From NCBI GenBank assembly GCA_018700895.1, contig JABIUV010000050.1, positions 1 through 59,003 of the forward strand: DNA of 59,003 nucleotides, given 5' to 3'. Below are positions 44,096-52,958 of the stretch, one piece after another. Position 1 is the stretch's first letter, and each line of letters opens with the position of its first letter. The notes below the pieces were generated by a model. It ran no database searches, had not been told where the DNA came from, and saw only the letters and a program-made list of their open reading frames with translations. Source of the stretch: Bacteroidota bacterium (lineage in GTDB: Bacteria; Bacteroidota; Bacteroidia; NS11-12g; UBA9320). A program made the position numbers and the translations under genes.

Positions 44096-45025
44096 ATGTA
44101 TAAACCAAAAAAAAACATTGTCTTAACGACGCTTTTTACATCCATTAGCATTTTATCATTTTCACAAAATAGCATGTCATCTTTTTATTCGGAATCTACA
44201 TTCCTAGCATTGATCATTTTATCCGTAGTATTGGCAGCCATCGCTGCACTACTTTTCGGAATCAAAAGACACTTATCTGCTCTTAACAAAGAAAGAAACG
44301 CAGAAGAAGACGAACCGTCATTATACGAAAGTAAAATAAAGCCGGTGATAGACGGATGGAATCCCACCATCGCTACGCTCGTGATTGCAGGATTATTCCT
44401 CGTTGTGCTGGGTGGATTTGGTTATAAATTTGGGATGGACGAGGTTGGTGTACAGCAAGGCTATGCTCCATCACAACCTATTAACTTTTCACACAAGATA
44501 CACGCTGGCCAGTATGAGATAGATTGCAAATACTGTCACAGTACTGTGGAGAAATCTAAATCGGCGAGTATCCCGTCACTCAATACTTGTATGAACTGTC
44601 ACAAATACGTGAAGGCTGAAGAAAAGTATAATGGTAAAACATCTCCTGAAATACAAAAAATATATAATGCTATTGGTTTTGATGGTGAGAATATGGAATA
44701 CATAGAGGGGTATGAGCAGAAACCAATAGAGTGGGTGCGTATACATAACCTTCCCGATTTAGCTTATTTCAACCACTCTCAGCACGTTGTGGTAGGTAAA
44801 TTAGAATGTCAGACCTGTCACGGCCCGATCCAAGAAATGGAGAAAGTGTACCAATACTCTACCCTACAGATGGGCTGGTGTATTGACTGTCACCGTGAGC
44901 GAGGCATCGACTCAGAAAACAACGATTACTATGAAGAGGCACATAAGAATATGATAGCCGAAGGAAAAGACTTTATATCGGTTGCCGACAACGGAGGCCT
45001 AGAATGTAGCAAGTGTCACTATTAA
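44096..45025 (+). CDS. actA: Alternative complex III pentahaem cytochrome subunit ActA
   Basis: ActA is the multihaem c-type cytochrome of the membrane complex that oxidises quinol in place of cytochrome bc1. The 309-aa protein has five CXXCH motifs: CKYCH (144-148), CMNCH (165-169), CQTCH (238-242), CIDCH (262-266) and CSKCH (304-308). Before them are a signal-like N-terminus (to about 24) and two hydrophobic helices (about 35-55, 90-110). The gene opens the six-gene act operon (27 nt to actB) after a -7 box. Confidence 0.95.
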   Translation: MYKPKKNIVLTTLFTSISILSFSQNSMSSFYSESTFLALIILSVVLAAIAALLFGIKRHLSALNKERNAEEDEPSLYESKIKPVIDGWNPTIATLVIAGLFLVVLGGFGYKFGMDEVGVQQGYAPSQPINFSHKIHAGQYEIDCKYCHSTVEKSKSASIPSLNTCMNCHKYVKAEEKYNGKTSPEIQKIYNAIGFDGENMEYIEGYEQKPIEWVRIHNLPDLAYFNHSQHVVVGKLECQTCHGPIQEMEKVYQYSTLQMGWCIDCHRERGIDSENNDYYEEAHKNMIAEGKDFISVADNGGLECSKCHY

Positions 45026-45051
45026 TCAATAACTAAAGAGAAAATCACATT

Positions 45052-48000
45052 ATGTCTTCAAATAATTATTGGAAAGGTGTAGAAGAGTTAGACCAAACAC
45101 AAGAGTTTGTGACTTCTAATGCCAACGAATTTTCAGAAGGATTACCACTAGAGCAAGTTTTTTCTAACGATGATGCTACAAGAGCAAATCGTAGAGACTT
45201 CCTAAAATACTTTGGTTTCGGATTAGGAGCTGTAACCTTAGCCGCTTGTAACAAAACACCTATTAAGAAAGCAATACCTTATACCGAAAAACCGGATAAT
45301 GTAACACCAGGTGTTCCGTTGTACTACGCAAGTAGCTCTGTTAGTAATAACGAAGGTTTCCCTGTGCTAGTAAAGGTCCGTGAAGGTAGACCAATCAAAT
45401 TTGAACCAAATAAGGAAGCTACCTACTTCGGTGGTGGATTAGATGGCCTTGGTCATTCGGCTCTTCTTTCTTTATATGATACAAATCGCCTTCCTGGAGC
45501 TATGGTTGCAGGTAAGAGGAAAGCACAAGAGTGGTCTAAATTTGACAAGGAGGTAGTAGCTGCACTGGACAAAACAGCAACAAGCGGTAAGTCAATTGCG
45601 ATTATCACCAACGGAAGTACAAGTTTGGTAACGAACCAAGCTATTGAAGATTTCAAAGCCAAATATAGTAATACTGAAGTAGTTTCTTACGAGCCTATCA
45701 CTTACAGTGGTATCAAACGAGCAAATAAGAAATCCTTTGGACAAGCTATCATCCCCGCTTACAATTTTGACAAAGCGGAGGTAATTGTAAGTTTTGGAGC
45801 TGATTTTCTTGGAACTTGGATAAGCCCTATCAAATTTCACTCTGATTACAGTAAGAACAGAGTACCTAAAGATGGTAAAATGTCTAAGCACTACCAGTTT
45901 GAGTCATTGATGTCCCTCACAGGAAGTAATGCGGACGTACGTGTACCTATGAAAATGAGTAACGTAAGTCAACACCTAATCGCCTTATACCGCGAATTAG
46001 GAGGAGCAACTCCTCATCAAGGGATGGAAGTTGCTGGTAATAACATAAAAGCAGCGGCGAAAGAATTAGAAGCAGCTGGTAGTAAAGGACTCGTAGTATG
46101 CGGAAGCAACAATGAGGCCGACCAATTATTGGTAAATGCTATCAATATGATGCTTGGTGCTTATGGGTCTACTATAGACTCCACCAACTACTATAAAGGT
46201 CAAAGTGCTGATGAAGCTGATTTTACAGCATTTTTAGTAGAAGCCAAAGCAGGTAAATACGGTGCGGTAATCACAATAGATGCTAACCCCGTATATTCAC
46301 ATCCTGAAGCTGAGGCTGCATTTGCCAAAATACCTACTCGTATTAGCACGGCAATCACCTTAGACGAAACTTCGGTAGAAGCTACACACATAGCAACCAA
46401 TTTGCACCCACTAGAAAATTGGGATATAAAAGAGCCTTACAAAGGTCGGTTTGTTGTATCTCAACCTACTATCTCTCCTGTATTCAATGGCAGAGCAGTA
46501 GCAAGTTCATTAGTAGCTTGGTCAGGTGGTAAAGTAGCAGACAAAGACGAAACTACCCACGCTTATAAATACACCAAAGCTGTTTTTGCTAAAGCTATCG
46601 GCGGCGACTTCAATAAAGCATTAGAACTTGGTGTTGTAGAAAACACCTCAAGTTCAAGCGTACCATCATTTAACATTACAGGAGGTGCTGCAGCAGAAGC
46701 ATTAGCACAAGTAAAAGGTGCAGAAAAAGAACTTATACTTTACCAAAAAGTAGGTGTAAGAGATGGAGCTTACGGTAATACTCCTTGGGCTCACGAAATG
46801 CCTGATCCAGTAAGTAAGGTGACTTGGGATAACTATATCAGTATCTCAATGCCTGATGCCAAAGCTCAAGATTTGGAAACTGGTGACACAGTTAAGTTAA
46901 CTACTAAATCTGGCGATATCGAATTACCCGTATTGGTACAACCGGGACAAACAAAGTCTACCTACGGTATAGCCTTAGGATACGGAAGAAAATTGCCAGA
47001 GGGAGTTAAGAATGACTTAAAAGACTTGGGTAAAAATGCCTACGGTTTAGTAGATATGTCTGCCGGATATGCAGATTACACTGTAGGTGGTATCAAGATA
47101 GAAAAAGTACCTACTACATTCAAATATGAATTCGGTATTACCCAAACACATTATAGTATAGAAGGTAGAGATATTATACGTGAAGCAACGCTTGACGAGT
47201 ACAATAAAGATCCAATGGCCGGTGGACACGTTCACAAGCCAAAGATGATATCGCTTTGGGATGATTACGATTATAGCAAAGGTCATCATTGGGCTATGGC
47301 CATCGACCTGAACTCTTGTACAGGTTGTAGTGCGTGCATCGTAAGTTGTAGTATAGAGAACAACGTTCCTATCGTAGGTAGAGACGAAGTAAGACGCAGA
47401 CGTGAAATGCACTGGTTGCGAATAGATAGATACTACAGTTTTGAGGCTCCAGCTAAAAAAGACTTGAGTATGAGTATCGTACACGGTGGAGACCAAACCG
47501 TAGAAGCCGGTGAGCAAATGACCAAAGAAAAGGTGATGGAAGCTTACTCTGCCGCCTCAGAGAATGAGGCCACTGCTTATGATTACTACGAGAATGTACG
47601 TGTAGCACATCAACCAATGATGTGTCAGCACTGTGATAATGCTCCTTGTGAGACGGTATGTCCTGTACTTGCAACTACACACAGTAGTGAGGGACTAAAC
47701 CAGATGACGTACAACAGATGTATTGGAACAAAGTATTGCGGTAATAACTGCCCATACAAAGTGCGTAGATTCAACTGGTTTAGATACAACGAAAACGAGA
47801 AGTTTGACTACCACTTCAGCAATGATTTAGGTAAGATGGTAATCAACCCAGACGTTACTGTACGTTCTAGAGGTGTGATGGAGAAATGTAGTTTCTGTGT
47901 ACAACGTATTCAGTCTACTAAGCTTGCAGCTAAGCGTGAGAATCGTAAAATGAAAACAGATGAATTCACTACAGCGTGTGCTCAAACTTGTCCATCTAAT

Positions 48001-48141
48001 GCTATTGTATTTGGTGACTTAAACGACCAAAGCAGTGAAATAGCTAAATTATATGCTAACGAGAGATCATATCACGTACTTGAGGAGCTAGGCGTTAAAC
48101 CTTCAGTTCAGTACATGACCAAAATCAGAAATAAGAAATAA
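45052..48141 (+). CDS. actB: Alternative complex III molybdopterin-like/Fe-S subunit ActB
   Basis: A 1029-aa fusion of a molybdopterin oxidoreductase-like half (about 90-730, cofactor-less in known ACIII) with a ferredoxin-like half. N-terminal ANRRDFLKYFGFGLGAVTLAAC (residues 45-66) is a Tat-type signal followed by a lipobox-like Cys. Fe-S ligand groups are CTGCSACIVSC (756-766), CQHCDNAPCETVC (from 858), CIGTKYCGNNC (from 890), CSFC (from 946) and CAQTC (976-980), enough for several clusters. It transfers electrons between ActA haems and the quinol site. Confidence 0.95.
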   Translation: MSSNNYWKGVEELDQTQEFVTSNANEFSEGLPLEQVFSNDDATRANRRDFLKYFGFGLGAVTLAACNKTPIKKAIPYTEKPDNVTPGVPLYYASSSVSNNEGFPVLVKVREGRPIKFEPNKEATYFGGGLDGLGHSALLSLYDTNRLPGAMVAGKRKAQEWSKFDKEVVAALDKTATSGKSIAIITNGSTSLVTNQAIEDFKAKYSNTEVVSYEPITYSGIKRANKKSFGQAIIPAYNFDKAEVIVSFGADFLGTWISPIKFHSDYSKNRVPKDGKMSKHYQFESLMSLTGSNADVRVPMKMSNVSQHLIALYRELGGATPHQGMEVAGNNIKAAAKELEAAGSKGLVVCGSNNEADQLLVNAINMMLGAYGSTIDSTNYYKGQSADEADFTAFLVEAKAGKYGAVITIDANPVYSHPEAEAAFAKIPTRISTAITLDETSVEATHIATNLHPLENWDIKEPYKGRFVVSQPTISPVFNGRAVASSLVAWSGGKVADKDETTHAYKYTKAVFAKAIGGDFNKALELGVVENTSSSSVPSFNITGGAAAEALAQVKGAEKELILYQKVGVRDGAYGNTPWAHEMPDPVSKVTWDNYISISMPDAKAQDLETGDTVKLTTKSGDIELPVLVQPGQTKSTYGIALGYGRKLPEGVKNDLKDLGKNAYGLVDMSAGYADYTVGGIKIEKVPTTFKYEFGITQTHYSIEGRDIIREATLDEYNKDPMAGGHVHKPKMISLWDDYDYSKGHHWAMAIDLNSCTGCSACIVSCSIENNVPIVGRDEVRRRREMHWLRIDRYYSFEAPAKKDLSMSIVHGGDQTVEAGEQMTKEKVMEAYSAASENEATAYDYYENVRVAHQPMMCQHCDNAPCETVCPVLATTHSSEGLNQMTYNRCIGTKYCGNNCPYKVRRFNWFRYNENEKFDYHFSNDLGKMVINPDVTVRSRGVMEKCSFCVQRIQSTKLAAKRENRKMKTDEFTTACAQTCPSNAIVFGDLNDQSSEIAKLYANERSYHVLEELGVKPSVQYMTKIRNKK

Positions 48142-48165
48142 TAACGAAACAGCTCACTAACTAAT

Positions 48166-49512
48166 ATGTATTCAGCAGATATAAGACAGCCACTAGTAAC
48201 TGGTGGCAAAACGTACTCAGATGTTACAGCTGACATTTGCAGACCTATTGAAAACAAGCCTACCAGCTCTTGGTGGGTTGGATTCATAACAGGTGTCGTA
48301 CTTCTCATGGTATTAGCAGGGACACTTGCTTGGACCGTATGGGAAGGAATAGGTACTTGGAACACCAATAAATCTGTAATGTGGGGTTGGGATATTACCA
48401 ACTTTGTATTTTGGGTTGGTATAGGTCACGCAGGAACTTTGATTTCGGCGGTTCTCTTACTCTTCAGACAAAAGTGGAGAATGTCGATTAACCGATCTGC
48501 AGAGGCCATGACCATTTTCGCTGTATTCTGTGCCGCGATTTTTCCTTTGTTTCACATGGGTCGTGTATGGTTAGGCTTTTGGCCACTACCATTGCCTAAT
48601 GCCTTTGGATCACTTTGGGTAAACTTTAACTCTCCCCTACTTTGGGACGTATTCGCGATATCTACTTACCTATCTGTATCGCTAGTATTTTGGTACTTAG
48701 GTTTGATTCCTGATATTGCTACTGTACGTGATAGAGCAACCACCAAAGCTCGTAAGTTTTGGTACGGATTCTTCGCGATGGGCTGGAATGGTTCGGCTAA
48801 GTCTTGGGGACGTTACGAGGTTGTAGCACTTATACTTGCGGGTATATCTACTCCGCTTGTACTTTCGGTACACACCATTGTATCTATGGACTTTGCAACA
48901 TCTGTAATTCCTGGATGGCATACCACGATATTCCCTCCATACTTCGTAGCTGGAGCCATTTTCTCTGGGTTTGGTATGGTACTTACGCTTTTGCTTATCG
49001 CAAGACACGTAATGAATTACGAAGCATACATAACTTCTGAGCACTTAGAGGCTATGTGTAAGGTAATCTTACTTACGGGTTCTGTAGTAGGTTTGGCATA
49101 TATCACCGAGTTCGTAATCGCTGCATACTCAGGATATGAGTATGAGCAGTACGCGTTTGCTAATAGAATGTTTGGACCTTATGCTTGGGCATATTGGACT
49201 ATGATGTTCTGTAACCTTATGGCACCACAGGTATTCTGGTTCAAATGGTCTAGAACTACACCTTGGTTCATATTTGTGATATCTATAGTAGTAAACATAG
49301 GAATGTGGTTTGAGCGTTTTGTTATTATCGTAACCTCACTTCACAGAGACTTCCTTCCAAGTAGCTGGGTTATGTATCACGCGACGTGGGTAGAGGTAGG
49401 AATATTCTTAGGAACATTTGGATTATTCTTCACGTGCTTCTTCCTATTCGCTAAATTCTTGCCAGTAATCAATATGGCAGAGGTTAAAACCATCCTAAAA
49501 GACAAAGAGTAA
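48166..49512 (+). CDS. actC: Alternative complex III membrane subunit ActC (NrfD/PsrC-like)
   Basis: A 448-aa polytopic protein with about ten transmembrane helices. GHAGTLISAVLLLFRQKWRM (helix 2-3), PLFHMGRVWLGFWPLP and SVHTIVSMDFATSVIPGWH are family hallmarks of the quinol-binding NrfD/PsrC-like subunits; a conserved His/Asp-containing proton pathway is probable. It lies 24 nt after actB and 1 nt before actD. Confidence 0.95.
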   Translation: MYSADIRQPLVTGGKTYSDVTADICRPIENKPTSSWWVGFITGVVLLMVLAGTLAWTVWEGIGTWNTNKSVMWGWDITNFVFWVGIGHAGTLISAVLLLFRQKWRMSINRSAEAMTIFAVFCAAIFPLFHMGRVWLGFWPLPLPNAFGSLWVNFNSPLLWDVFAISTYLSVSLVFWYLGLIPDIATVRDRATTKARKFWYGFFAMGWNGSAKSWGRYEVVALILAGISTPLVLSVHTIVSMDFATSVIPGWHTTIFPPYFVAGAIFSGFGMVLTLLLIARHVMNYEAYITSEHLEAMCKVILLTGSVVGLAYITEFVIAAYSGYEYEQYAFANRMFGPYAWAYWTMMFCNLMAPQVFWFKWSRTTPWFIFVISIVVNIGMWFERFVIIVTSLHRDFLPSSWVMYHATWVEVGIFLGTFGLFFTCFFLFAKFLPVINMAEVKTILKDKE

Positions 49513-49513
49513 T

Positions 49514-50482
49514 ATGATTGATAAAAGTATATTATTAGATGATAAGAAGTTTACCGTAGGCATCTTTGATGACTCTGATAAACTATTGCATGCAGTACAC
49601 ACACTGAAGGAAAAAGGTGTTAAGATTTTTGATTGCTACACACCATTTCCAGTACACCATCTAGATAAAGCTCTAGGTTATAATAGAACTAACCTTTCTA
49701 TAGGTGCATTTTTATGCGGTATGTTAGGTTCACTCACTGGGTTTACACTTGCATATTATATGAACGTGGTAGATTGGCCAATGATTATAGGTGGTAAGCC
49801 ACAGGATATATCAGTATTCACTAGTTTCATTCCGGTGATTTTCGAACTTACCATCCTGTTTACAGCATTTGGTATGGTGATTATGTTTTTTGCACGCAGC
49901 AGAATGATACACGGCATCAAAGAGGACTTGCTTTCTCGTCGTCAAACAGACGACCATATGGTTCTAGCTATAGACAACGATGAAGACCAAGACGTAAGCA
50001 GCTCAGATATACAAGCTATTCTTCGAGGAGAAGGTGCTATAGAAGTAAGTGGATCACGAGAGGCGTTTCATACATCATTAAACGACGAAGAAACATTAGC
50101 TCAAATAACTGCTAACAACGACACATCTGAACCAGTACTTAACGTCACAGAACCTGAGGTAGCGGCAGAAGAACCTGCTCCGGCTCTTACAAAAAAAGCA
50201 GAGAAGGTAGTACTAACCGAAGATGAAAAAGAAGAGCGACTAAACGCAATTAAATCTACGCTTGGTGATGCTTCCGGGGCTAAAGACGATCTAAAGCTAA
50301 TAAGTGGCGTAGGACCAAAATATGAAGAGACCTTGAATTCCATAGGTATTTATACGTTTGAGCAGATTTCTAAGATGACGCTTGAAACTATTAAGGCTGT
50401 TGAGGAAATAACCAACTACTTCCCAGGAAGAATAGAACGAGACGATTGGATTAATCAGGCTAAAAAATTAATGAGCAAATAA
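49514..50482 (+). CDS. actD: Alternative complex III subunit ActD with extra C-terminal HhH domain
   Basis: ActD (DUF3341 type) is a two-helix membrane subunit; residues 1-150 match it (KKFTVGIFDDSDKLLHAVH, PFPVHHLDKALGYNRTNLS, two helices near 65-85 and 105-130). It should end near residue 175, but this protein runs to 322 aa. The extra part holds an acidic Ala/Glu/Pro linker (about 155-255) and a helix-hairpin-helix domain (258-322: DDLKLISGVGPKYEETLNSI ... PGRIERDDWINQAKKLM). No stop or frame change separates the parts. Confidence 0.93.
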   Translation: MIDKSILLDDKKFTVGIFDDSDKLLHAVHTLKEKGVKIFDCYTPFPVHHLDKALGYNRTNLSIGAFLCGMLGSLTGFTLAYYMNVVDWPMIIGGKPQDISVFTSFIPVIFELTILFTAFGMVIMFFARSRMIHGIKEDLLSRRQTDDHMVLAIDNDEDQDVSSSDIQAILRGEGAIEVSGSREAFHTSLNDEETLAQITANNDTSEPVLNVTEPEVAAEEPAPALTKKAEKVVLTEDEKEERLNAIKSTLGDASGAKDDLKLISGVGPKYEETLNSIGIYTFEQISKMTLETIKAVEEITNYFPGRIERDDWINQAKKLMSK

Positions 50483-50486
50483 TACG

Positions 50487-51551
50487 ATGAAGCTGAACAA
50501 TTTATTAAAATACGGAATCATCTTAAGTATACCAGCATTGGGTTTGGTATCTTGCGTAAGCTCTGGAGATAATCCAGGAATTGAGTACGCACCTAATATG
50601 TACGTATCTCAGGCTTATGAGCCATTCTCTCAGGAGAAAAAATTTGACTACAACCCTAACGGAATGACGATGCGTCTTCCTGTGAATGGTACCGTGGCGA
50701 GAGGTCAAGGTTCATTCATTTACCCTCACGCAAATACGGGAGATGGATATACGGCAAGTGCTGGATTCACTCCTTGGGTTGCTGCTACTCAAACCAATGT
50801 AGAAGAAGGGCAACGCCTTTATAATATATACTGCTGGCATTGTCACGGTAAAAAAGGTAAAAACAATGGCCCGATTTTCAAGGATAAAAAAATGCCTGTT
50901 CCATCCTGGCCAAATTACCAGTCTGAGTATATCCAAAACTTACCTGTGGGTAAAGCATATCACACCATTACTTATGGTAAAGGTTTGATGGGTTCTCATG
51001 CATTTATGCTTAACCCTGAAGAGCGTTGGAAAGTGATACACTATGTAAAGTCGTTAGCGTATGGTGACGATTTCAAATTCGCACCAGAAGCTTCAACTAG
51101 CGGAGAAGGAGCAGATATAGATGAAATAGAAGGGATATCCTCTGACGTAGATGGCACGATGGGTGTACATCACGATTTTCCTGGAACGGCTGCTGAAAAA
51201 GCAATGATTATGACTGCAATGTCTAAAGTTGATTTTAAAGGATTCCCAAATAGAAGAGTAATGAAAGCATCTTCTGAAGGACAGTTGGATAAAGTAGCAG
51301 TGTATCTTGCGAAGCATCCTGATTTTAAAGCTACCGTTGTAGGACAAACGTGGGCTACCTTGACAGAAGAAGGTGCAGCAACCTTAGGTCTGGACAGAGC
51401 TAAAAATATTGTTGCATACCTTACCAGCAAAGGAGTTAATGCGGCAAATCTATCTGCACGCAATGTAGCTGATGCAGGTATGACCGGAGATATTACATCT
51501 AGTGCCGACAGACAAGCCAATAGACGAGCAGAAATAGAAATTTATAAATAA
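50487..51551 (+). CDS. actE: Alternative complex III monohaem cytochrome ActE with OmpA-like tail
   Basis: A 354-aa lipoprotein (lipobox LVSC, C23). The haem c site is CWHCH (116-120) and LMGSHAFML (167-175) may hold the axial Met, as in ActE. Residues about 245-354 are added and resemble OmpA-like domains: KASSEGQLDKVAVYLAKHPD, the VVGQT strand, GLDRAKNIVAYLTSKGV and a terminal NRRAEIEIYK. In typical OmpA domains GHTD carries the aspartate that binds diaminopimelate; here it is GQTW. The Arg after GLD is kept. It lies 4 nt after actD and 15 nt before actF. Confidence 0.92.
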   Translation: MKLNNLLKYGIILSIPALGLVSCVSSGDNPGIEYAPNMYVSQAYEPFSQEKKFDYNPNGMTMRLPVNGTVARGQGSFIYPHANTGDGYTASAGFTPWVAATQTNVEEGQRLYNIYCWHCHGKKGKNNGPIFKDKKMPVPSWPNYQSEYIQNLPVGKAYHTITYGKGLMGSHAFMLNPEERWKVIHYVKSLAYGDDFKFAPEASTSGEGADIDEIEGISSDVDGTMGVHHDFPGTAAEKAMIMTAMSKVDFKGFPNRRVMKASSEGQLDKVAVYLAKHPDFKATVVGQTWATLTEEGAATLGLDRAKNIVAYLTSKGVNAANLSARNVADAGMTGDITSSADRQANRRAEIEIYK

Positions 51552-51566
51552 CCGAAACTGAATAAA

Positions 51567-52958
51567 ATGGGACACCATATAATAAACGAAGTATCGCAAG
51601 AAAAATTTGAGTTCACAGGAAGAGCCAAAATGATTGCTATTGCTCTATTTGTAATAGGAGCTATACTAGCAGGAGTAGGTGCTATGAATGTTAAGAAAAA
51701 CTGGGATAACCATGGCGAACAAATAGAAGCTCACGAAGAGCATGAAACAGATGCACATGGAGATCATCACGCTACATTAGCTCAAGATGATGCTCACGAA
51801 GGTGCGTCTCAAGCAGCACACGGTGAAGCAGCACACGGTGAGCACGAAGTAACTTACATGTCTCGTGTATGGGCTAACTTGCTTATGAATAGCTACTACT
51901 TTTGGTTATTTGCTATATCAGCAGTATTTTTCATAGCTGTGAACTATGTGGCCAACGCCGGATGGGCAGTTATGCTCAAGCGTGTGATGGAAGCACAATC
52001 AAGCTATATTTACATTGGTTCAGCAATATTGGTTGCTGTACTAATTGGAGCGAAGGATACACTATATCATTGGGTACAATACATTCACAGTTCTGCTGCG
52101 GGAAATCCTGCAGATGCTGGATATGATGCCATATTAGAAAGTAAGCGATGGCTACTAAATGAGTCATCTTTATTCTTCTTTATACCATTTGTACTTATTG
52201 TTTGGGTTCTTATAAGACGTAAGTTAAGAAACAACAGTACTGCAGAAGACGAAACCAAGGACCTTGGACTATTCAAAAGTTCAACAAGATGGTCTGCAGG
52301 ATTTATATTCTTCTTTGCTTTTTCATTCTCAGCCTTATCTTGGTTAATCATAATGAGTATAGATGCACATTGGTATTCTACTATGTTCTCTGTATACAAC
52401 TTTGCGATCTCATTTGTTACAGGTCTATCTGTAATGATGGTAATAGCTCAATATTTGAAATCAAAAGGATACATGGAAATGGTATCTGATGAGGTAATAC
52501 ACGATTTGGGTAAATTTATGTTTGCCTTCTGTGTATTCTGGGGATACATTTTCCTTGGACAGTGGTTACTTATATGGTACACCAACTTACCAGAGGAAAC
52601 AGTGTACTTCGCTGCTCGATTACAGGGTCAGTACAAAACATTATTTGCAGTGAACATATTCATGTGCTTCCTAGCTCCATTCTTAGTACTTATGATGCGT
52701 AACGCTAAACGTTCGCCCAAAGTATTATTAACTGCAGCAGCTATTATCCTTATTGGCCATTGGGTAGATGTATACTTGCTTATTATGCCAGGTACAATAG
52801 GTGACCACGCAGGAATTGGTATGTTAGAAGTAGGAACTACTATGGCGTTTGCAGGATTGTTTATATATGTAGTGCTCAACTCGTTGAGCAAAGCAAATAT
52901 GTATCCTACCCATCACCCGTACTTACTAGAATCAGCAAATCACGATGTTGGACCATAA
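51567..52958 (+). CDS. actF: Alternative complex III membrane subunit ActF
   Basis: A 463-aa polytopic subunit of the NrfD/PsrC-like group, about ten helices, pairing with ActC. Between helix 1 (about 20-42) and helix 2 (about 105-130) lies an acidic, histidine-rich stretch (HEEHETDAHGDHH and HEGASQAAHGEAAHGEHE, about 55-95). Core motifs include GDHAGIGMLEVGTTMAFAGL near the C-terminus. It is the last gene of the operon; a strong terminator follows. Confidence 0.94.
   Translation: MGHHIINEVSQEKFEFTGRAKMIAIALFVIGAILAGVGAMNVKKNWDNHGEQIEAHEEHETDAHGDHHATLAQDDAHEGASQAAHGEAAHGEHEVTYMSRVWANLLMNSYYFWLFAISAVFFIAVNYVANAGWAVMLKRVMEAQSSYIYIGSAILVAVLIGAKDTLYHWVQYIHSSAAGNPADAGYDAILESKRWLLNESSLFFFIPFVLIVWVLIRRKLRNNSTAEDETKDLGLFKSSTRWSAGFIFFFAFSFSALSWLIIMSIDAHWYSTMFSVYNFAISFVTGLSVMMVIAQYLKSKGYMEMVSDEVIHDLGKFMFAFCVFWGYIFLGQWLLIWYTNLPEETVYFAARLQGQYKTLFAVNIFMCFLAPFLVLMMRNAKRSPKVLLTAAAIILIGHWVDVYLLIMPGTIGDHAGIGMLEVGTTMAFAGLFIYVVLNSLSKANMYPTHHPYLLESANHDVGP

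Follow-up and report, generated by a model that had tools for sequence, protein, structure and literature searches.

The window, the whole stretch of 59,003 nucleotides from a Bacteroidota bacterium that was analysed here, carries an alternative complex III (ACIII) operon, actA to actF, at 44096-52958 on the + strand. Its genes and the features of ActD and ActE are:

44096-45025, + strand: actA, with five CXXCH motifs
45052-48141, + strand: actB, iron-sulphur subunit
48166-49512, + strand: actC, NrfD-like subunit, in the window without an HhH tail
49514-50482, + strand: actD, 322 aa with a C-terminal HhH extension (PF11821, 177 bits)
50285-50479, + strand: HhH domain of ActD, residues 258-322, found by profiles and predicted to be cytoplasmic from the R. 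marinus topology
50487-51551, + strand: actE, 354 aa, monohaem cytochrome c lipoprotein of ACIII with a C-terminal OmpA-like tail
50544-50555, + strand: lipobox LVSC of ActE, residues 20-23, read from the sequence
50832-50846, + strand: haem motif CWHCH of ActE, residues 116-120, read from the sequence
51219-51548, + strand: OmpA-like domain of ActE, residues 245-354 (Pfam, AlphaFold, Foldseek, alignment)
51351-51353, + strand: codon of Trp289, at the place of the canonical diaminopimelate-binding Asp (gapless alignment)
51375-51377, + strand: codon of Ala297, at the canonical Asn place (from the alignment; the motif, TD(x)7NxxLSxxRA, follows PMC5104382)
51396-51398, + strand: codon of Arg304, the conserved Arg, kept
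51519-51527, + strand: NRR of ActE, residues 345-347, kept
51567-52958, + strand: actF, second NrfD-like membrane subunit (orthologues at the same operon place)

ActE consists of a lipobox, a cytochrome c domain, a linker and then the C-terminal domain. Like the ActE proteins of F. johnsoniae (PDB 6btm) and R. marinus (6f0k), it is a monohaem cytochrome lipoprotein encoded at the same operon place, here between actD and actF. Its cytochrome part is homologous to 6btm chain E (residues 28-190, E 1.2e-24) and also matches 6f0k_E (E 2.2e-13). However, the solved chains match only this part, and the window protein has about 160 extra residues with the OmpA-like domain at the end. Cys23 of the lipobox and C116, C119 and H120 of the haem motif are invariant in an alignment of the 12 tailed ActE proteins. 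ActE of F. johnsoniae is described in PMC8552683 as dispensable for electron flow to the oxidase, although its loss slows growth.

The initial annotation of this DNA had assigned an OmpA-like domain to the C-terminus of ActE, and Pfam, AlphaFold and Foldseek agree that the domain is real. Against a Pfam cut-off of 27.2 bits, the whole protein reaches 33.6 bits with PF00691 and the tail 36.6 bits. The AlphaFold model of the tail, calculated from 12 aligned tails, has a pLDDT of 81.8 and a pTM of 0.78. OmpA-family domains were listed as its structural matches, the best Foldseek match being OmpA of C. gingivalis (5wtl, E 8.1e-9), and structure comparison with 5wtl gave a VIA Z of 15.6 and an rmsd of 2.8 over 119 aligned residues. 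A new fold for the tail is ruled out by the model, the Foldseek search and the structure comparison.

The annotation had further held that the key aspartate of the domain is lost while the downstream arginine and NRRAEI are kept, and both parts proved correct. The canonical GHTD reads GQTW in the window strand VVGQTW. A phmmer alignment of the tail with K. pneumoniae OmpA (GYTD...NQQLSEKRA) runs without gaps through LSxxRA and places Trp289 on Asp, Ala297 on Asn and Arg304 on Arg. The window tail contains no Asp or Glu within four residues of Trp289, which together with the gapless alignment rules out that the Asp was shifted by an alignment error. Arg304 and NRRAEI are present in the window tail, and Arg and NRR are found in all 12 tails. 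The change of Asn to Ala297 is a second loss of a pocket residue that the annotation had not mentioned; the Asp loss is confirmed, and with Asn lost too the observation is slightly stronger than first reported. Compared with OmpA-like PF00691 domains such as Acinetobacter OmpA (3td5), Pal and 5wtl, the window tail shares the fold, the Arg and the NRR, but differs in the pocket, where Asp and Asn are replaced by Trp and Ala.

As a yardstick we used 39 OmpA-domain matches in three genomes, of which the 30 with loci were aligned and the nine without a locus were left unaligned. Asp is kept in 24 of the 30 aligned domains. The six exceptions are the window tail (W), the ActE tail of G020 (A) and four other proteins, two with Ser and two with Asn. 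Loss of the Asp in OmpA domains is uncommon yet not unique, even within the window's genome. Ser in place of Asp (GHTS) is seen in a pair of OmpA-family proteins other than ActE, L100 (G000:C11:42285-42569) and L101 (G020:C19:13446-13733). A change of the same kind has been described in Treponema: according to PMC5104382, the OmpA-like domain of Tp0624, in which Asp is replaced by Ala and Arg is kept, does not bind diaminopimelate. Domain 3 of Tp0624 resembles the window tail in the lost Asp and the retained Arg. It belongs, however, to another host protein and organism, and its Ala is fixed in all 15 homologues covered by the same source, whereas the replacement varies in the window's family.

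Within this family (f1), 9 of 38 genomes have an OmpA tail on ActE. At the Asp position the window tail has W, that of G002 has G and that of G009 has D, while A is found in five g3 tails and S in G024; the sister tails in the alignment thus mostly have A, S or G, and Asp is absent from eight of the nine. The G009 tail (L066), which does have the Asp, is degenerate in the rest of its domain. In a second family, f65, all three ActE tails have D and the complete motif is intact. Because the Asp is missing in eight of nine f1 tails and present in three of three f65 tails, canonical wall binding by the window copy is unlikely; judged by its pocket residues, this copy has probably lost canonical diaminopimelate binding. 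The nine f1 tails form one clade (99/95), so the Asp was probably lost early in f1. The wider class was sampled with ActE and ActD profile searches of 295 genomes, and results from it refer to the matches listed; G209 and G238 are not among the ActD matches listed.

ActD, encoded directly upstream of ActE, carries a second tail, which the annotation had not seen as the other half of a pair. PF14520 matches residues 259-300 and scores 27.2 bits on the tail alone (cut-off 27); a profile of the aligned ActD tails matches PDB 8yy9 chain O with E 3.7e-17, and the NCBIfam NuoE family matches the tail with 86.6 bits. The model of the ActD tail has a pLDDT of 83.2 and no Foldseek match at E 0.001 or better. 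HhH tails of the same domain type occur on NuoE, bL21, uS2 and the RC-LH1 protein-O (8yy9 chain O), and those of NuoE and protein-O likewise sit on membrane bioenergetic complexes. In contrast to the ActD tail, no OmpA partner is reported for any of them in the literature examined. The function of HhH on the photosynthetic RC-LH1 subunit is called obscure in PMC12079452. In the R. marinus structure, as described in PMC5928083, the termini of ActC, ActD and ActF are cytoplasmic and ActE is periplasmic. Therefore, the ActD and ActE tails would face opposite sides of the membrane.

The two tails occur together. Among 47 operon rows, 11 have both tails, 34 have neither, one (G024) has only the OmpA tail and one (G013) only the HhH tail; the rows represent the operons retrieved, are no random sample and are related by descent. 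Expressed differently, the HhH tail is found in 11 of 12 operons with a tailed ActE and in 1 of 35 others, and the HhH-only row also has an OmpA remnant. The tree requires no fewer than five changes of the OmpA tail and no fewer than six of the HhH tail. A sign test on four independent pairs found the same direction in 3.3 on average and never the opposite (median p 0.25); it is underpowered, with too few pairs for significance. This joint gain and loss suggests that the two tails may work as a pair, and on balance we consider a functional link between the ActD and ActE tails more probable than not, G024 with its OmpA tail and no HhH tail counting against the pairing.

Other families reach a similar arrangement by other routes. 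In each of the three f65 operons read, HhH is present on ActC (563-579 aa) as well as on ActD (298-301 aa), and ActE has the canonical OmpA tail. The f65 HhH domain is another subtype. One clade with the f1 HhH tails is rejected (AU p 1.4e-4), and with it a shared single origin of the ACIII HhH tails in the two families; at least two separate HhH recruitments are demonstrated. A single origin of the f1 and f65 OmpA tails is not rejected (AU p 0.155). From the tree of OmpA tails the control rows L109 and L115 were dropped because the same proteins were already among the pair rows, as were three ActE tails that were already included. In a third family, f63, the genome G257 was chosen for its HhH, the stand-alone HhH profile having matched a 617-aa frame just before actD. 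Its operon has HhH on ActC, recognised by similarity to the ActD tail with a Pfam score below the cut-off, no HhH on ActD and no OmpA on ActE. After actF, however, lies the following gene, and then COX1:

L203, 12395-13891: cytochrome oxidase subunit II (COX2 and COX2_TM over the cut-off) with a C-terminal canonical OmpA domain (88.5 bits)

COX2 could be seen in six other operons (three of f65, L057, L058 and L074), and in none of them does it have an OmpA tail. By profile and predicted topology, all three families thus have ACIII-oxidase operons with at least one cytoplasmic HhH domain and one periplasmic OmpA domain.

The same two domains are also encoded away from the act operon, where a gene for a membrane-anchored OmpA protein lies directly beside a gene for a membrane-anchored coiled-coil HhH protein. 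The window's genome has this stand-alone pair, which was found in five genomes (G000, G009, G020, G024 and G209). The loci are:

L153, 3821-5328: stand-alone OmpA-HhH operon
L154, 6336-8175: stand-alone OmpA-HhH operon
L155, 3224-4622: stand-alone OmpA-HhH operon
L156, 6246-7715: stand-alone OmpA-HhH operon
L158, 5059-6697: stand-alone OmpA-HhH operon

Profile searches detected a near-full-length OmpA partner in 13 of the 295 class genomes among the matches listed. Outside the five training genomes, the HhH gene adjoins the OmpA partner in eight of eight cases, seven by profile and one (G342) by reading. G257 has a further stand-alone pair with two HhH domains in one protein, and in total the pair occurs in at least six families (f1, f65, f63, f3, f68 and f55). 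A full stand-alone HhH gene is present in 19 of the 38 f1 genomes, including all nine with ActE tails. The gene is also kept by 10 of the 28 f1 genomes in which ActE has neither tail nor remnant, so the stand-alone pair does not require the ACIII tails. Six of the 47 operon rows (L065 and L073-L077) were left out when the rows were compared with the stand-alone pair, their genomes being incomplete or not profile-searched. In six genomes of the window's genus, g1 (G007, G008, G010, G011, G014 and G017), the HhH gene is reduced to a membrane stub of 73-79 aa and the neighbouring OmpA gene is without a recognisable OmpA motif; Pfam found no OmpA domain in the G011 copy. Both ACIII tails are absent from the five of these six genomes in which ActE and ActD are fully readable. 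Judged from these gene remnants, one g1 subclade has lost both domains of the stand-alone pair too. Neither OmpA on ActE, nor HhH on ActD, nor an OmpA-HhH gene pair was found in the open-licence literature searched; the mentions of OmpA in PMC8552683 refer to the ompA promoter.

The same HhH domain is also fused to many ribosomal proteins in the class, which were named by reading the sequences and not by family search: bL21 (L159, L160 and L208), uS2 (L161), bS1 (L163, L164 and L205), bL27 (L200, L204 and L207), a bL20-like protein (L209) and bL17-like proteins (L210-L212).

Established at the level of sequence are both tails, their joint distribution, the differing choice of subunits that carry them in the three families, and the existence of the stand-alone operon. 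Based on them we hypothesize, with evenly divided confidence, that the tails form a paired trans-envelope tether for the ACIII-oxidase supercomplex, the wall-binding half of which is decaying in the window's genus. The ActE tail would be the periplasmic half of a two-domain attachment module on the ACIII-oxidase assembly, with the OmpA-like domain outside the inner membrane and the HhH domain, in the window that of ActD, on its inner side. Such a module may be used alone as a two-gene operon, with the anchored OmpA protein in the periplasm and the anchored HhH protein in the cytoplasm, and may have been grafted onto the respiratory supercomplex. Its OmpA half would originally have bound peptidoglycan via the Asp/Asn/Arg pocket, which is intact in f65 and f63, while the HhH half would bind something cytoplasmic, perhaps nucleic acid or another HhH-bearing assembly. 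Together the two halves could set the position or the spacing of the respiratory complex with respect to the wall. We put this mechanism forward tentatively, as somewhat less probable than not and as less probable than a functional link between the tails. Because HhH domains are also found on ribosomal proteins, the HhH domain need not serve OmpA at all.

Membrane-anchored periplasmic OmpA domains fix inner-membrane machines to the wall in MotB and TagL. Both families are among the fold matches of the ActE tail in the structure comparison. In MotB and TagL the OmpA domain serves a motor or a secretion system, whereas in the window it would serve a respiratory complex and have a cytoplasmic HhH counterpart. 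The earlier suggestion that the ActE tail ties the respiratory complex to the wall is plausible for an ancestral state, given the intact Asp in other families. With one of the three key pocket residues left in the window and a rapidly evolving tail, contact with the wall is probably weak or gone in the window's genus, where the HhH half is probably still maintained; in the window bacterium, erosion of the wall-binding half seems to be under way.

The proposed tether matters for the questions whether respiratory supercomplexes are envelope-anchored and whether ActE has a role beyond electron transfer. Should the two tails function as a pair, they would provide a genetically tractable handle on the positioning of respiratory complexes, and the HhH tail, with its role on the photosynthetic complex described as obscure (PMC12079452), would gain a candidate partner. 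The Asp loss in the window could then be read as the late decay of one member of a pair and not as the acquisition of a new ligand. In its widest form, which we consider doubtful, the hypothesis would be that Bacteroidia use a previously undescribed two-part trans-envelope module as a stand-alone operon and have grafted it at least three times onto the ACIII-oxidase supercomplex (ActD/ActE, ActC plus ActD/ActE, and ActC/Cox2). Respiration would thereby be held at a fixed position between the wall and an HhH-marked cytoplasmic partner, for example the nucleoid or the ribosomes (HhH on bL21, uS2, bS1, bL17, bL20 or bL27).

The OmpA tail in the window's genus might instead be functionless and drifting to loss, with Trp289 a random change in a dying domain. 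The g1 ActE tails have accumulated 1.9-3.3 times the nonsynonymous change of the cytochrome part, most g1 relatives are without the tail, and in G013 a remnant of about the last 30 residues is left in which NRR is gone. This looks like relaxed constraint on the g1 ActE tail. The stand-alone OmpA protein in g1 also varies at the Asp position, with D in G000, G009, G005 and G015, Y in G006, G016 and G002, K in G012 and G004, and a deletion in G018. Nevertheless, the fold of the window tail is still well predicted, Arg and NRR are kept, and the dN/dS of the g1 tails (0.24-0.63, by a simple pairwise count near saturation) lies below 1. The ActD HhH tail, moreover, shows no consistent acceleration (0.8-1.8 times in four g1 pairs). 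We consider a tail entirely without function unlikely, and prefer a tether that is eroding on its wall side.

Covariation of the tails could also arise from joint exchange of the neighbouring genes actD and actE, or from a general trimming of domains in lineages with small genomes. The g1 genomes are indeed small (1.4-2.5 Mb), and G017 (L040), with signs of local exchange, takes a different place in the ActE and ActD core trees than in the ActBCF trees. The ActE core does not reject one clade of the three tailed g1 rows (AU p 0.29 with protein, 0.15 with DNA); since actD and actE adjoin, some of the g1 covariation may stem from exchange of the two genes as a block. However, one clade of tailed g1 rows is rejected by ActBCF (AU p 3.6e-5) and by the ActD-core DNA (2.3e-4). 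Furthermore, the same pair recurs in f65 and f63, where the HhH subtype differs or the domains sit on other subunits, and one g1 subclade has lost both domains of the stand-alone pair, which is not linked to the ACIII tails. Linkage or streamlining as the full explanation is thus rather improbable, and functional pairing of the two tails remains our preferred reading.

It is similarly improbable that the pocket was repurposed, as the initial annotation had proposed, so that the domain with its conserved fold and Arg would have a different ligand, for instance a D-amino-acid peptide or a partner protein. Such a change would agree with the retention of Arg and NRR in all 12 tails and with the g3 ActE tails, which are strongly constrained despite the missing Asp (dN/dS 0.05-0.14, by the same near-saturated count) and in four of five cases carry an Asp two residues further along (GHVASD or GHIASD), where a shift of the canonical Asp is possible. 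The authors of the Tp0624 study speculated about D-Glu for a similar change (PMC5104382). In the window, by contrast, the pocket loop is not conserved with the sister tails (W, G and the degenerate D) and evolves fast, and nothing points to a new ligand or to an outer-membrane partner for a g1 tail that changes quickly, is mostly absent and survives as a remnant in G013. Functional loss, linkage and a repurposed pocket each keep some weight, and they could hold together in part alongside the eroding tether. An assembly artefact or a false fusion of two genes has a negligible probability despite the rarity of ActE tails in the class (among the matches listed for 295 genomes), because the gene is one open frame and the same architecture is shared by the independent assemblies of eight other f1 genomes, making nine in f1, and of three f65 genomes.

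Some variation was also seen in the act genes themselves. The window ActA (44096-45025; five CXXCH motifs, 309 aa) is shorter than the ActA proteins of several other families, which have 408-561 aa (e.g. L081, L082 and L087), and is without their N-terminal extension. In G086 (L055, 5119-6210), ActD and ActE form an apparently single open frame of 364-368 aa, an unexpected topology, given that ActD terminates on the cytoplasmic side and ActE lies in the periplasm. ActF in G031 (L063) and ActC in G033 (L064) are split into two frames each, by frameshifts or assembly errors. In G635, G620, G406 and other f85 genomes, the ActE frames of 337-398 aa end in a C-terminal extension to which the OmpA portion of the profile does not match.
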